64,000 nt of DNA from Chrysiogenes arsenatis DSM 11915 (GTDB lineage Bacteria; Chrysiogenota; Chrysiogenetes; Chrysiogenales; Chrysiogenaceae): the NCBI RefSeq assembly GCF_000469585.1, contig NZ_AWNK01000008.1, positions 1 through 64,000 on the forward strand. Direction: 5' to 3'. Every line of letters begins with the position of its first letter. The stretch's first letter is position 1. Shown here in pieces: positions 3,015 to 60,304 of this stretch. A program made the position numbers and the translations under genes. Below the pieces are notes generated by a model. That model was not told the origin of the DNA. It did no database searches and saw nothing but the letters and a program-made list of their open reading frames with translations.

Positions 3015-3551
3015 ATGGCTCATCATGATGAACATGCAACGATAGAAGCGCCCGCAGCCAAAACTGGCGAATGTGTTTCGATGATCAATACGGTGTTCGC
3101 AGGTGCCAAGGCGATTGCGACCGGAATGAAAACGGTACTCAAGTACGCTGGTGGCCCCCGCCCAACACGCGAATATCCCGAAGTTGTCCGTCCGCTCGCC
3201 GAGCGCTCGCGTGGACGTCTCTACTTTATCGAAGAAAAGTGCATTGCCTGCAATATGTGCGTCAAGGCGTGCCCGATCGACGTTATCCATCTCGAATCGC
3301 ACCGCGAAGACCGTGAAGTGGATGGCAAAGTCAAAAAAGTTCCCGTCATCGACAAGTACACCGTCGATATCGGCGAATGTATCTCTTGCGGTTTGTGTGC
3401 CGAACACTGTCCAACCGACGCGGTTTTCCAAGCGCATGAGTACGAAACGGCCTACTACTACAAAGAGCTTTTTGTAATGAATAAGGATGAACTGGCTATG
3501 ACATTTCCAGAGTTCATCGCTAAGAAAAACCGGGAAATGAAGGGGAAGTAG
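3015..3551 (+). CDS. nuoI: NADH-quinone oxidoreductase subunit I (2x[4Fe-4S] ferredoxin type)
   Basis: Carries iron-sulphur clusters N6a and N6b, which relay electrons toward NuoB. It has 178 residues. Two ferredoxin motifs are visible: CIACNMCVKACP with cysteines 76, 79, 82 and 86, and CISCGLCAEHCP with cysteines 122, 125, 128 and 132. The N-terminus is His-rich and extends about 25 residues beyond the usual amphipathic region. It lies seven bases after nuoH with a GGAT-type ribosome site. In complexes without NuoEFG this subunit is near the entry point for electrons from a soluble donor; that is family knowledge, not visible here. Confidence 0.96.
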   Translation: MAHHDEHATIEAPAAKTGECVSMINTVFAGAKAIATGMKTVLKYAGGPRPTREYPEVVRPLAERSRGRLYFIEEKCIACNMCVKACPIDVIHLESHREDREVDGKVKKVPVIDKYTVDIGECISCGLCAEHCPTDAVFQAHEYETAYYYKELFVMNKDELAMTFPEFIAKKNREMKGK

Positions 3552-54415: not shown

Positions 54416-57391
54416 ATGGATCACTCACACCAAAAATACCTTGCCGTGCACCGCTTCCACTGGATGCTCTTTGCCGTAGGCTTGCTGATTCTTGGTGGAT
54501 TTGTGGCGTTTTCACTCTACGGCGACTACCAAACGCTGACAAAACAAGAACAGGATCGCCTAGAGACGCAGGCACGAGTGATTGACGAAAACATTATACG
54601 TCAGCTCGACTCAGTCAACCGTGCCCTCGCCGGAATCCGTAACGACCTCCCACTTTGGCAAGGCGATGAAGGAAAAGCCGTTGGGATACGACGCCTGTAC
54701 GCCATGAGCGACGCCATGCCCGGCATTCGCACCTTCCTGATAATGGATGGCGAAGGAACCGTAACACTTTCAAACCGGCCGATTGTAGTAGGGCAAAATT
54801 TCAGCTACCGCGAATACTTTCAACTCCCGAAACACAACCCTAATCCGCAAACCCTTTTTATCGGGCCACCCTTTAGTACGTTCCCCAGTCAAGTCCTTGG
54901 AATGAACCTTGTGCGGATGATACCAGACGCCCAAGGACATTTTAATGGTATTGTCGGCGCAACGCTTGATCCTGATTATTTCAGCATTCTTTTGCGTTCT
55001 ATCATTTATAGTAATGATATGTGGAGTGCTGTCATACACGGAAACGGCTCACTTTTCCTCGCATATCCCGAGTCGTATAAATCGTTTGCTGACTCAAACT
55101 CCATTTTCAACTTCCATCGCGAACACGCATCAGAAGCCACGTTTCAGCGCCGTACTATTGATACCGGCGATGCAGAATACATGATTGCCATGCGCACCGT
55201 GCAGCCACCCTCTTTGCAAATGGACACACCACTTATTGTGGCGGTAGGGCGCAGCGTGAGCAGTATTTACGCCTCTTGGTATCGTGAAGCTACCTATCGC
55301 GTTGGCCTGCTCGGCTTTATCGCGCTGATCGGATTCCTTGGATTATGGCAATACCACCAACGGCTGCGCGTTCACACCGCCCTGATTCAAGATTCACTGC
55401 GACGCGACCGTGAAAACGCCGAACGGCTCCGGCTCGCGACGGAAGCTTCTCAGCTTGGCGTGTGGGAATACAACCTAGTATCGAATAAATTAACCTGGGA
55501 TCGCGCCATGTTTGACCTCTATGGCATTGCCCCAACCAATAACGTCTCGTTTGATACGTGGAAAACAGCGCTACTTCCAGAAGATTTCGAACGGGAAAGT
55601 GCTCTCTTTCAAGCAGCAATTGAGCAGCGAAGCCGCTATATGTCTCAATACTATATTCGCCGTCAGGATACAGGTGCCATACGCTTAATTCGTGTGGCAG
55701 CCGAGGTACACTGTAGCAGTGATGGCCATCCGCACAAGCTGATCGGCACCAACAAAGATGTTACCGAGCGCGAAGAAGCCCGTGAAGCATTGCGACTGGC
55801 GACCGAACGCGCCGAACATGCGAGCCGTGCGAAGAGTGAATTTTTGGCCAACATGAGTCACGAAATCCGCACCCCGATGAATGCGGTGCTGGGACTGCTG
55901 ACGCTGCTACAACAAACACCACTCACTGGCCAGCAACGCGACTACGTCGCCAAGATTAACTCCGCATCTCGTTCACTGCTTGGAATTCTCAACGACATTC
56001 TTGACTTTTCACGGGTTGAAGCGGGAAAACTCCAGCTCGAATCGCTCCCCTTTCACCTCAGTCACGTGTTTCATAACCTTGCTATTATTACCCATAACCT
56101 TGCCGAGCAGAAACAGATCGCCGTAGAGTATTATATCGATCCCGCCATCCCCGCCACACTAGCAGGCGATCCACTCCGCCTGCAGCAGGTGTTGCTCAAC
56201 CTCACTGGCAATGCGGTGAAATTCACCAATAAAGGCTCCGTGCGCGTCAGTGCCTTGCTGGTCACAGCCGATGAATCGGGCAACACCATCCGCTTTAGTG
56301 TGCGCGACACGGGCATAGGTATTGCGGCAGCGAAACTCGCCACTATTTTCGAAAGCTTTACTCAGGCAGAAACCTCAACCGCCAGACGTTTTGGCGGTTC
56401 GGGACTGGGACTTGCGATCAGTCAACGCATCGTCGCCCTCATGGGCGGTGAACTTCACGCCGCCAGCGAAGAGGGGCAAGGGAGTGATTTTTCCTTTACA
56501 CTCACGCTGCCAAGTGCCACCGCCAGTGCCGCAACGCCAACCATCAGTCAGCAGTTTTCATCTCCCTCCGTGCCACTGCAACGGCAACGCCTAAACGGAT
56601 TGCGCATTCTCTTGGTTGAAGATAACCTCATGAACCAAGAAGTCGCGTTCGAACTTCTGAGTCACGAAGGGGCGATTGTCACCATCGCAAGTGATGGCAA
56701 CGAAGGGGTCAATCTTGCCACAAGCGCCAGCATACCATTCGACGTTGTTTTAATGGATATTCAAATGCCAGAGATGGATGGATACACGGCAACGCACCTG
56801 ATCCGTGCTCATGCGTCGTGCGCTGCCCTGCCGATCTTGGCCATGACGGCTAACGTACTGGAATCTGACCGCACTGCGGCACTGGCAGCCGGCATGAATG
56901 ACCATATCCCCAAACCCATCGATCTGGATACTTTGGTAGCAAAACTTCAGGCCTATGGCACAACGCTTGCCAGCACGCCAGCGCAACCATCGGACGTTGC
57001 CACGCGGCACATCACGGCCGAAATCCCCGAGGGTTTTCAGATTCCAGAAGCACTCGCGCGACTAGGCAATGACATCGCCCTGTGGGTAAGTATTGCGCGC
57101 AAGTTCCGCGCCCACGCCACCGAAATTCTGCAAAACAGTAAGCGTGCCCTTCAGCGCGGAGAGTGGGAAATCGCAACCCGCGGCGTGCATACCCTCAAAG
57201 GGGTGGCCGCATCACTCGGTGCCATCTCACTTTCTGATGCCGCGCGAGAAACGGAAACGATCCTGCGTCGCGAACGCGGTGATTTAGTGGATGCACTGGT
57301 AGGATTACAACAGGTAGCCGCGCTGTTACCGGAAACGGCGGACACGCTAGAGCGAGTGGCACAAGAATTGGAAAATCAGGCAGACACATAG
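54416..57391 (+). CDS. Membrane hybrid histidine kinase (Cache-PAS-HisKA-HATPase-REC-HPt)
   Basis: Encodes 991 residues. TM1 is at about 15-35 and TM2 at about 296-313. Between them lies a 260-residue periplasmic sensor that looks like a double Cache domain (GHFNGIVGATLDPDYFS). Then come a PAS domain (about 345-455), HisKA with H482, HATPase (GSGLGLAISQ), a receiver with D781 in [13 protein letters not shown] and an HPt with H925 in VHTLKGVAASLG. The whole relay up to an external response regulator is thus in one protein. AAAGGAGG precedes the ATG. Its last three codons and the TAG lie inside a REP element. Confidence 0.9.
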   Translation: MDHSHQKYLAVHRFHWMLFAVGLLILGGFVAFSLYGDYQTLTKQEQDRLETQARVIDENIIRQLDSVNRALAGIRNDLPLWQGDEGKAVGIRRLYAMSDAMPGIRTFLIMDGEGTVTLSNRPIVVGQNFSYREYFQLPKHNPNPQTLFIGPPFSTFPSQVLGMNLVRMIPDAQGHFNGIVGATLDPDYFSILLRSIIYSNDMWSAVIHGNGSLFLAYPESYKSFADSNSIFNFHREHASEATFQRRTIDTGDAEYMIAMRTVQPPSLQMDTPLIVAVGRSVSSIYASWYREATYRVGLLGFIALIGFLGLWQYHQRLRVHTALIQDSLRRDRENAERLRLATEASQLGVWEYNLVSNKLTWDRAMFDLYGIAPTNNVSFDTWKTALLPEDFERESALFQAAIEQRSRYMSQYYIRRQDTGAIRLIRVAAEVHCSSDGHPHKLIGTNKDVTEREEAREALRLATERAEHASRAKSEFLANMSHEIRTPMNAVLGLLTLLQQTPLTGQQRDYVAKINSASRSLLGILNDILDFSRVEAGKLQLESLPFHLSHVFHNLAIITHNLAEQKQIAVEYYIDPAIPATLAGDPLRLQQVLLNLTGNAVKFTNKGSVRVSALLVTADESGNTIRFSVRDTGIGIAAAKLATIFESFTQAETSTARRFGGSGLGLAISQRIVALMGGELHAASEEGQGSDFSFTLTLPSATASAATPTISQQFSSPSVPLQRQRLNGLRILLVEDNLMNQEVAFELLSHEGAIVTIASDGNEGVNLATSASIPFDVVLMDIQMPEMDGYTATHLIRAHASCAALPILAMTANVLESDRTAALAAGMNDHIPKPIDLDTLVAKLQAYGTTLASTPAQPSDVATRHITAEIPEGFQIPEALARLGNDIALWVSIARKFRAHATEILQNSKRALQRGEWEIATRGVHTLKGVAASLGAISLSDAARETETILRRERGDLVDALVGLQQVAALLPETADTLERVAQELENQADT

Positions 57392-57464
57392 GTCTGCCCC
57401 TACAAAGAAGCAGGAGCTGTTTCTGGATTTGTTTTTTGTAGGGGCGAACCGGTGTGTTCGCCCT
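57379..57464. repeat. BIME: two inverted REP palindromes at the end of the kinase gene
   Basis: On the minus strand 57379-57403 carries GTAG plus a GGGCAGAC hairpin, identical over 25 bases to the array copies at 59537. On the plus strand 57438-57463 carries GTAG plus GGGCGAAC, CGGTGT, GTTCGCCC, a perfect 8-base stem. The two GTAG heads face each other across 34 bases. The first one overlaps the kinase stop at 57389-57391, and uvrB ends 32 bases to the right. The hairpins may also act as a terminator between the convergent genes. Confidence 0.85.
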
Positions 57465-57495: not shown

Positions 57496-59493
57496 TCACA
57501 CCGCAAGCTTTTTCTTGAGGCGCAGCACCTCATCACGAATCTTGGCCGCCTCCTCAAACTCCAGCGCTTCGGCCAGTCGGTGCATTTCGGTTTCCAGCTT
57601 CGCAATATGCTCGCGCAGCTGATACGGCGCCATCTCTTCGGCCACCTGAAAGCGGATTTTTTCCTGCCGTTCTTCCATCTGTTCCGGTGCCAGTTTTTCG
57701 CCAACGGCCTTAGTGACGCTCTGCGGCGTAATGCCATGCGCCGCGTTCCACGCCTGTTGCAGCTCGCGCCGTGCGGTCGTTGTTTCGATCACTTTACGCA
57801 TACTTTCCGTCATTTTATCGGCGTAGAAAATCACGTAGCCATCCACGTTGCGTGCTGCCCGTCCGGCGGTCTGCATCAAACTGCGTTCACTGCGCAAAAA
57901 ACCTTCCTTGTCGGCATCCAAAATCGCTACCAGTTGCACTTCCGGGATATCCAGCCCTTCGCGCAGGAGGTTAATCCCAATCACCACATCGTAGATACCA
58001 AGCCGTAAATCACGGACAATTTCGCTCCGTTCCAGCGTGTCAATTTTAGAATGCAAGTATTTTACTTTGATCCCTAATTCACTCAGGTAAGAGCTGAGAT
58101 GTTCACTCAGGCGAATCGTCAGCGTTGTTACCAACACCCGGCCACCAAGCGCGGTCACTTTTTTGATTTCAAAGAGCAGATTATCGACCTGCCCCGTGGA
58201 AGGTCGCACTTCGATCAGCGGATCAAGCAGACCGGTCGGGCGGATGATCAATTCAGCAATGCCATTTGCACCCGCTAAGGCCATTTCATAGTCGGCAGGA
58301 GTGGCGGAGACGTAAACAATCTGCGGGGCGAACTGATTGAATTCATCAAAGTTCAGCGGGCGGTTATCGAGCGCGGCAGGCAGGCGAAAACCATATTCGA
58401 CCAACGTTTGTTTGCGACTACGGTCGCCGTTATACATCCCGCGCACTTGCGGCAGGGTGACATGCGATTCGTCGATAAACACGAGTGCATCTTCTGGGAG
58501 ATAGCTCAGAAGTGTCCACGGTGGCTCGCCAGTGGCGCGTCCATCAATGTAGCGCGAATAGTTTTCGATCCCATTGCAGTAGCCAAATTCTTCCATCATT
58601 TCGATGTCGAACTTCACCCGCTCGGCAATGCGCTGCGCTTCAATCAGCTTCCCTTCCTGTTGAAAGCGGTACACGCGCGCCTTGAGATCATTTTTGATCT
58701 GGGCGAGGGCGCCCTGAATCACGCTTTTATCAGCCACGTAGTGAGAGTTTGGGTAGATGCGAATAGATGGCATGTCGCCGCGCTGGTTCCCCGTTAGCGG
58801 ATCAATTGCCAGAATGCGGTCGATAGTATCGCCGAAAAACTCGATGCGAATCGCGCTGTCGGCTTCGTAAGAAGGGAAGATTTCCAGAATATCGCCACGC
58901 CGCCGAAACGTACCGCGCCGAAAATCAAGATCGTTGCGGTCGTACTGAATTTCAATCAGATTATCGGCCAGATCTTCCATATCAATATCTTGTCCAACTT
59001 CCAGTCGGATCACCATTTGCTGGTAAAAGTCGCGTGAGCCAAGACCGTAAATGCAGCTCACCGAAGCGACGATCAGGATATCGCGCCGTTCAAACAGCGA
59101 GCGCGTGGCGCTGTGGCGCATGCGGTCGATTCGTTCGTTGATACTGGAATCTTTCTCAATAAACGTATCTGACGAGGGGATATACGCTTCTGGCTGATAG
59201 TAGTCATAATAGCTGACAAAATATTCCACCGCGTTGTGCGGCAGAAATTCTTTGAACTCCTGATAAAGCTGCGCAGCAAGGGTTTTATTATGCGCGATGA
59301 CGAGAGTCGGACATTGCAGCGCTTCGACCACCTTGGCCATGGTGTAAGTTTTCCCCGAACCGGTCACGCCGAGCAACACCTGATGGCGATGTTTCTGGCG
59401 TATGCGTGCCACAAGCGTAGCGATCGCCTCCGGCTGCGAACCAGACGGTTCGTACGGAGCTACCACCTGAAAAGGGATTGTGGTTGTATCCAT
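57496..59493 (-). CDS. uvrB: Excinuclease ABC subunit B
   Basis: DNA damage-recognition helicase of nucleotide excision repair, 665 residues. Walker A GVTGSGKT is at 42-49, the beta-hairpin region has [15 protein letters not shown], motif II is [12 protein letters not shown], and the C-terminal UVR motif ([19 protein letters not shown]) that contacts UvrC is present. AAAGGATAC precedes the ATG. The gene is flanked by REP elements on both sides. Confidence 0.97.
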
Positions 59494-59536
59494 TCATGTA
59501 TCCTTTTTGTAAAAAATCCCGCTGGGCGAACACGCT

Positions 59537-59799
59537 GTAGGGGCAGACCTATGTGTCTGCCCACATCAACCAGAACGAACACGCAGGTTCGCCCCTACAA
59601 GAAAACCAAAAACATCGCGTAAAAATCAAATCCACCGTAGGGGCAGACCTATGTGTCTGCCCACATCAATCAGAACGAACACGCAGGTTCACCCCCACAA
59701 GAAAACCAAAAACATCGCGCGCAAATCAAATCCGCTGTAGGGGCAGACCTATGTGTCTGCCCACATCAATCAGAACGAACACGCAGGTTCACCCCCACA
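59537..59799. repeat. Tandem BIME/REP array, exact 100-base period
   Basis: Units begin at 59537, 59637 and 59737; the first two are 100 bases long and the third is cut at 63 bases by the RAYT stop codon. Each starts with GTAG, then GGGCAGAC-CTATGT-GTCTGCCC, a perfect 8-base stem. About 10 bases later follows an opposite palindrome ending CGCCCCTAC in unit 1 and ACCCCCACA in units 2 and 3. A 38-base spacer (starting AAGAAAACCAAAAACATCGC) completes the unit. Differences between units are few, so the array is young. The sequence 59494-59800 holds no gene; a partial unit remains at 59524. Confidence 0.9.
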
Positions 59800-59800
59800 T

Positions 59801-60304
59801 TTATTCGCACACGAACAATGTATCTTCTTTCCATCGCGCAGGATTATTTTCGATATATTCACCGATTTTCACGTATTCGGCTTCGTCGCGGATAATCCGT
59901 TCCCAATAATTTCGTTGCCATAATTTACGACGAAACGGTTCCCATCCGCCATATTTTACTTGGCGTATGTATTCATTGGTGGTCATGGTCTTATACCATT
60001 GGACAACCGTCGATAGGCTCAACGGTTTCTCGCCTTTTAACGGAACCCGCTGATTTACGACTATAAAATGGATATGATTGGGCATACAGACAAATTGTTC
60101 TGCCATAAGGTCAGGAAACTTCTTCTCCATTTCATAAAACCATCGTTCTGTCATACATCCAGCCTCGCTCAGGTGCATGGTGCCCTCTGCAATTTTGCCG
60201 AACAGACACGCTCGTTCTTGGACGCAAATGGTTACGAAATAAGCTCCCGTCTGATTGTAATCGTATCCTTGCAAACGGAGAGAAACACGCCGATTGCCCT
60301 CCAT
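59801..60304 (-). CDS. REP-associated tyrosine transposase (RAYT, Y1/HUH family)
   Basis: Encodes 167 residues of the single-domain HUH nuclease type. The metal-binding H-x-H is at 77-79 (VCMPNHIHFIV), the catalytic tyrosine is probably Y133 in WQRNYWERIIRDE, and the start has the common YFVTICVQER. RAYTs bind and nick REP DNA, recognising a GTAG tetranucleotide at the hairpin foot; GTAG-headed palindromes lie directly after this gene. I chose ATG 60304 with GGAGCGGTGAGC upstream; the open frame extends 29 codons into tonB. It looks intact. It is placed just after tonB, where related operons carry a TPR gene. Confidence 0.9.
   Translation of the reverse strand: MEGNRRVSLRLQGYDYNQTGAYFVTICVQERACLFGKIAEGTMHLSEAGCMTERWFYEMEKKFPDLMAEQFVCMPNHIHFIVVNQRVPLKGEKPLSLSTVVQWYKTMTTNEYIRQVKYGGWEPFRRKLWQRNYWERIIRDEAEYVKIGEYIENNPARWKEDTLFVCE

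Follow-up and report, generated by a model that had tools for sequence, protein, structure and literature searches.

A probable REPtron near TnpA_REP subclass 2.4 in Chrysiogenes arsenatis, with a 100-nt tandem array of inverted REP pairs beside its RAYT gene

Analysis of the window (the whole 64,000-nt stretch of the Chrysiogenes arsenatis DSM 11915 genome presented above) led to a system that is very probably a REPtron (with a probability of about 0.88), namely one TnpA_REP (RAYT) gene on the chromosome, adjacent to its cognate REPs, and about 25 REP copies genome-wide. The RAYT gene is flanked by GTAG-footed REPs which recur in the genome, and the system is placed near TnpA_REP subclass 2.4; its anatomy is ordinary, its REPs are few, and RAYT clade and hairpin architecture match well. 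The features on which we rely were all read from sequence and comprise the anatomy of the locus, the copy number, the covariation of the stems, the clade-specific match of RAYT and REP and the absence from two same-family genomes; nicking activity, mobility and horizontal arrival of the system are what we infer in addition.

The array is located at 59537-59799 and consists of a 100-nt unit in three in-register copies, starting at 59537, 59637 and 59737. It abuts the stop codon of the RAYT/TnpA_REP gene (59801-60304, minus strand), so that the initial annotation, which described GTAG-headed palindromes with an exact 100-base period reaching the RAYT stop, was correct on this point. Each REP is 26 nt long, with a GTAG foot, an 8-bp stem and a 6-nt loop, and each unit is an inverted pair of REP hairpins. 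The first hairpin, at the head of every unit, reads GTAGGGGC-AGAC-CTATGT-GTCT-GCCC, while the second lies about 10 nt further on in inverse orientation (minus-strand reading GTAGGGGC-GAAC-CTGCGT-GTTC-GTTC) and is followed by a 38-nt spacer. The hairpin folds as DNA (z = -4.6) and gave no match in Rfam. Unit 1 (59537-59598, plus strand) harbors a REP at 59537-59562 and an inverted REP at 59573-59598, in which the GAAC stem is accompanied by an intact GTAG foot and an imperfect far arm. Unit 2 (59637-59698, plus strand) has a REP at 59637-59662 and an inverted decayed REP at 59673-59698, and unit 3 (59737-59798, plus strand) has an AGAC-stem REP at 59737-59762 and an inverted decayed REP with a GAAC stem at 59773-59798; both decayed hairpins have the foot GTGG and a broken stem base. 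The spacer at 59599-59636 separates units 1 and 2 and its second copy is located at 59699-59736, while unit 3 has no spacer and the RAYT gene starts there, the final REP of the array ending at 59798, two bases short of the RAYT stop codon (59801-59803). Between the array and the start of uvrB, at 59524-59535, a remnant is left in the form of a truncated REP half, GGGCGAACACGC, which was read directly from the sequence.

The second inverted pair that had been reported beyond uvrB is also present, at 57378-57463 on the far side of this gene. It is composed of an AGAC-stem REP at 57378-57403 (minus strand) and its inverted partner, a GAAC-stem REP at 57438-57463 (plus strand), downstream of uvrB. 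A histidine kinase gene at 54416-57391 has its last codons and stop (GCAGACACATAG) inside the REP hairpin at 57378-57403. The uvrB gene itself (57496-59493, minus strand) is established between both REP sites and is context outside the element; its product shares 74% and 73% identity with the UvrB proteins of two same-family genomes. An exbB-exbD-tonB-like cluster adjoins the RAYT gene, whose ATG is situated 2 nt past the stop codon of the tonB-like member. Comparison with the two same-family genomes showed that uvrB is not adjacent to tonB there, and no empty site was readable.

By analogy with the TnpA_REP proteins of E. coli, Stenotrophomonas and Marinomonas, the HUH/Tyr enzyme would bind the GTAG foot and the hairpin on single-stranded DNA, nick beside the hairpin via a 5'-phosphotyrosine link and rejoin the ends, and REPs or inverted REP pairs would thereby be copied or moved in trans. 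Growth of the array with its 100-nt period would have come later, most likely by local duplication of a single REP pair together with its flank. Between units 1 and 2 there are 8 differences in 100 positions, while units 2 and 3 are identical across 63 nt, the decayed hairpin included, and diverge at the RAYT end. Local duplication is favored because units 2 and 3 are identical down to their common decay and because the spacer is private to the array. The initial annotation had regarded the near-identity of the units as a sign of recent activity, in which case they would be successive independent insertions by RAYT. Their near-identity and their position beside RAYT speak for such insertions, but we consider them highly improbable, as units 2 and 3 have identical decay in common, the spacer accompanies the units in this array alone, and other tandem REP arrays of the genome show 56- and 54-nt periods and other spacers, as expected for slippage or unequal exchange. 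It was also suggested that the 38-base spacer may itself be part of the mobile unit; a search of the genome did not find it elsewhere and its two copies both lie within the array, so this proposal was rejected. One of the other arrays, at 1376-1582 of locus L012 (contig C6, 68179-68385), has three copies with a 56-nt period and is located between convergent genes.

The RAYT gene encodes a 167 aa protein with the HUH motif H77-I-H79. It exceeds the cut-off of the Pfam Y1_Tnp model (26.6 bits vs 23) and matches the NCBIfam REP_Tyr_transpos model (E-value = 3.4e-16), but with 59 bits it stays below the cut-off of 80, which is a naming threshold of one model and not a biological trait. The same cut-off was also missed by the close relatives that were scanned, including ones carrying REPs, and therefore the model does not cover this RAYT clade. 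A profile of 18 relatives matches E. coli TnpA_REP (4er8) at 2e-06, and the HUH motif and catalytic tyrosine of the Y1 transposase family are present, H77, H79 and Y150 aligning with 4er8. The claim that GTAG-footed REPs adjoin an HUH/Y1-type RAYT is borne out by these family matches. Concerning the active site, the initial annotation had listed H77, H79 and Y133 as intact. Both histidines are in place, while Y133, although present, is probably not the catalytic residue; it aligns with a phenylalanine of 4er8, and a related RAYT (L023) has phenylalanine there too. The catalytic tyrosine is probably Y150, since position 115 of the 4er8 chain falls on it in the profile alignment and Y115 is the catalytic tyrosine of E. 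coli TnpA_REP (PMC8266576). The AlphaFold model of RAYT is poor (pLDDT 50), which weakens any comparison of folds; its best fold matches are to IS200/IS605 TnpA, with 4er8 lower and all E-values > 0.001. The missed REP_Tyr_transpos cut-off, the poor fold model and the long branch of this RAYT on the RAYT tree count against the REPtron assignment. RAYT does not behave as an IS200/IS605 insertion sequence, which would have several near-identical copies of a self-moving transposase; it is single copy in the genome, and the IS200 model scored below its cut-off. Its G+C content of 44%, against 53-55% for the neighbors uvrB and tonB, suits horizontal arrival, without proving it.

Further copies of the GTAG hairpin, whose genome-wide count the initial annotation had proposed as a check, were found. 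The stem-neutral pattern GTAGGGGCN10GN3GCCC gave 21 exact matches in the 2.83-Mb genome and 0 for the reversed control, so a chance origin of the hairpins is excluded. Once degenerate copies were added by eye the total came to about 25, next to one RAYT of this type; these copy numbers rest on pattern searches. Three stem classes (AGAC, GATC and GAAC) were distinguished, and the changes between them are compensated. In a set of 16 distinct hairpins, pairing is kept in 97.7% of cells and 21 cells are changed on both sides, a covariation that was reached by none of 500 shuffles. Ten inverted REP pairs were identified in the genome, with variable linkers, while some REPs are single. All ten join unlike stems, AGAC being joined with GATC or GAAC (permutation p 0.002, with the array counted once), and across the loci collected unlike stems are found in 24 of 25 inverted pairs. 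This preference cannot be presented as new, since heterodimers have already been described and linked to protection against removal of long palindromes (PMC3733652), and homotypic pairs occur in other genomes (G455, G488).

For the relationship between enzyme and hairpin, 90 related RAYTs were collected, and a tree was built from an alignment that omitted the variable loop; each RAYT was then assigned the loop length found in the GTAGGG hairpins that lie within its gene or close to it. All 17 RAYTs with 6-nt loops fall in one clade of 20 rows (99% SH-aLRT), which holds the window RAYT; the remaining three members have 5-nt loops. The tree requires 22 changes of loop length, compared with a minimum of 37 in 200 shuffles, although the shuffling ignores the kinship of neighboring copies and shows phylogenetic linkage, not binding. 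At the level of sequence there is good evidence that RAYT and the hairpins are cognate. In addition, 67 of the 90 RAYTs on the tree, and 18 of the 20 in the window clade, carry internal REPs, i.e. one to four GTAG hairpins in their own reading frame, located in the loop after the HUH strand, between HUH and Tyr. It appears that the DNA and not the peptide is kept, because the internal hairpins are translated in more than one frame. These internal REPs are not a new discovery, since Quentin et al. (2018; PMC6006769) already gave them as the unique feature of TnpA_REP subclass 2.4. In the window RAYT an internal REP is missing, and that loop contains no detectable remnant of one. In the related RAYT of L023, likewise without an internal REP, the gene's TAG stop falls within the GTAG foot of the next REP (3474-3500).

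Regarding distribution, RAYT and REP occur together in 7 of 100 genomes, about 1.6 being expected (RAYT was found in 13 and REPs in 12), and a narrower hairpin pattern is present in 30 of 385 genomes from many families. This RAYT and the hairpins are both missing from two same-family genomes, each at least 99% complete. In three same-phylum genomes (G006, G010 and G046) the same hairpins are present, while RAYT was not found in them, G046 being only 73% complete; such RAYT-less genomes are a further point against the REPtron assignment. The proposal of a self-contained array with enzyme and substrates together consequently holds in part: the match of clade and architecture (17/17) supports the association, while the presence of the hairpins in 30/385 genomes, some of the same phylum without a detected RAYT, does not agree with the term self-contained. 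One more genome (G097) showed 219 matches to the GTAGGGGC hairpin pattern without a close relative of this RAYT, and has ten other Y1 proteins.

Another transposase might instead mobilize the array and the genomic copies, with RAYT as a bystander. The same genome encodes two Y1-type proteins of 339 aa (L018, 962-1981 and L019, 1102-2121, on contigs C9 and C6), which closely resemble each other and have an HYH motif; they could be candidates for this role; the same-phylum G006, with REPs and without RAYT, has two IS200-type transposases (TnpA). Nevertheless, the pattern search found no REP of this kind near either 339-aa gene, IS200 TnpA was not found in the own genome, and the clade match ties the REP architecture to this RAYT clade, so we regard mobilization by another transposase as very unlikely. 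One of the 339-aa genes adjoins an undecaprenyl-diphosphate-synthase-like gene.

Compatible with a REPtron origin is the idea that the REPs now serve the host as domesticated RNA/DNA hairpins (mRNA 3'-end stabilizers, terminators or gyrase sites), RAYT being a relic that no longer takes part in spreading them. Domestication would fit the position of most REP copies, just past gene ends or between convergent gene pairs, the single, diverged RAYT copy with its long branch, and the decay of the second hairpin in units 2 and 3. However, RAYT has an intact frame in which HUH and Tyr are conserved, the REP architecture still fits the RAYT clade, and the REPs are absent in the same-family genomes, so a conserved host function is not evident; domestication is possible, but the less probable outcome. 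With similar reserve, we put forward as a tentative and rather doubtful generalization that the 26-nt hairpin (GTAG, 8-bp stem, 6-nt loop) and its RAYT clade may pass between phyla as a pair, that hairpins may enter or persist without a detected RAYT, and that the length and the loop of the hairpin may be fixed by the clade, with compensated drift in the middle of the stem. If true, this would be a rule for predicting the substrate from the enzyme. The locus offers a clean small case, with one RAYT, about 25 REPs and none in the two same-family relatives examined, in which it can be tested whether RAYT brings REPs along and whether the RAYT clade dictates hairpin architecture; in other respects it is an ordinary REPtron.

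Among known systems, subclass 2.4 (PMC6006769) has in common with the window REPtron the HUH/Tyr core, the GTAG foot, canonical long REPs with a stem base of three G-C pairs and a patchy spread over phyla, and most of the relatives collected here have in-frame REPs between HUH and Tyr. The window RAYT differs in having no internal REP, though 18/20 of its clade have one, and its own REPs abut the stop codon. Similarly, the E. coli REPtron, or TnpA_REP with BIME (4er8; PMC8266576), has a single RAYT beside inverted REP pairs with a GTAG foot, and its pairs are built of two REP types (y with z in E. coli, AGAC with GATC or GAAC here), but the stems of the E. coli REPs are bulged and differ in sequence, and the two proteins are remotely similar (profile match at 2e-06). 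REPINs (Bertels and Rainey, 2011; PMC3116915) are likewise inverted REP doublets linked to RAYT, whereas here linkers differ between pairs and copies are few, so that no fixed REPIN unit is apparent. The GTAG REP families (Di Nocera et al., 2013; PMC3733652) resemble the present REPs by general features, as GTAG-tagged stem-loops forming head-head and tail-tail dimers, heterodimers and tandem clusters with flanks, with REPs inside or at gene ends. Viral contigs and plasmids were also searched as carriers, and only remote RAYTs were detected. The AGAC-stem hairpin was found on 37 stretches (L201-L237) of 2.9 million viral contigs, sometimes with two or three per contig.
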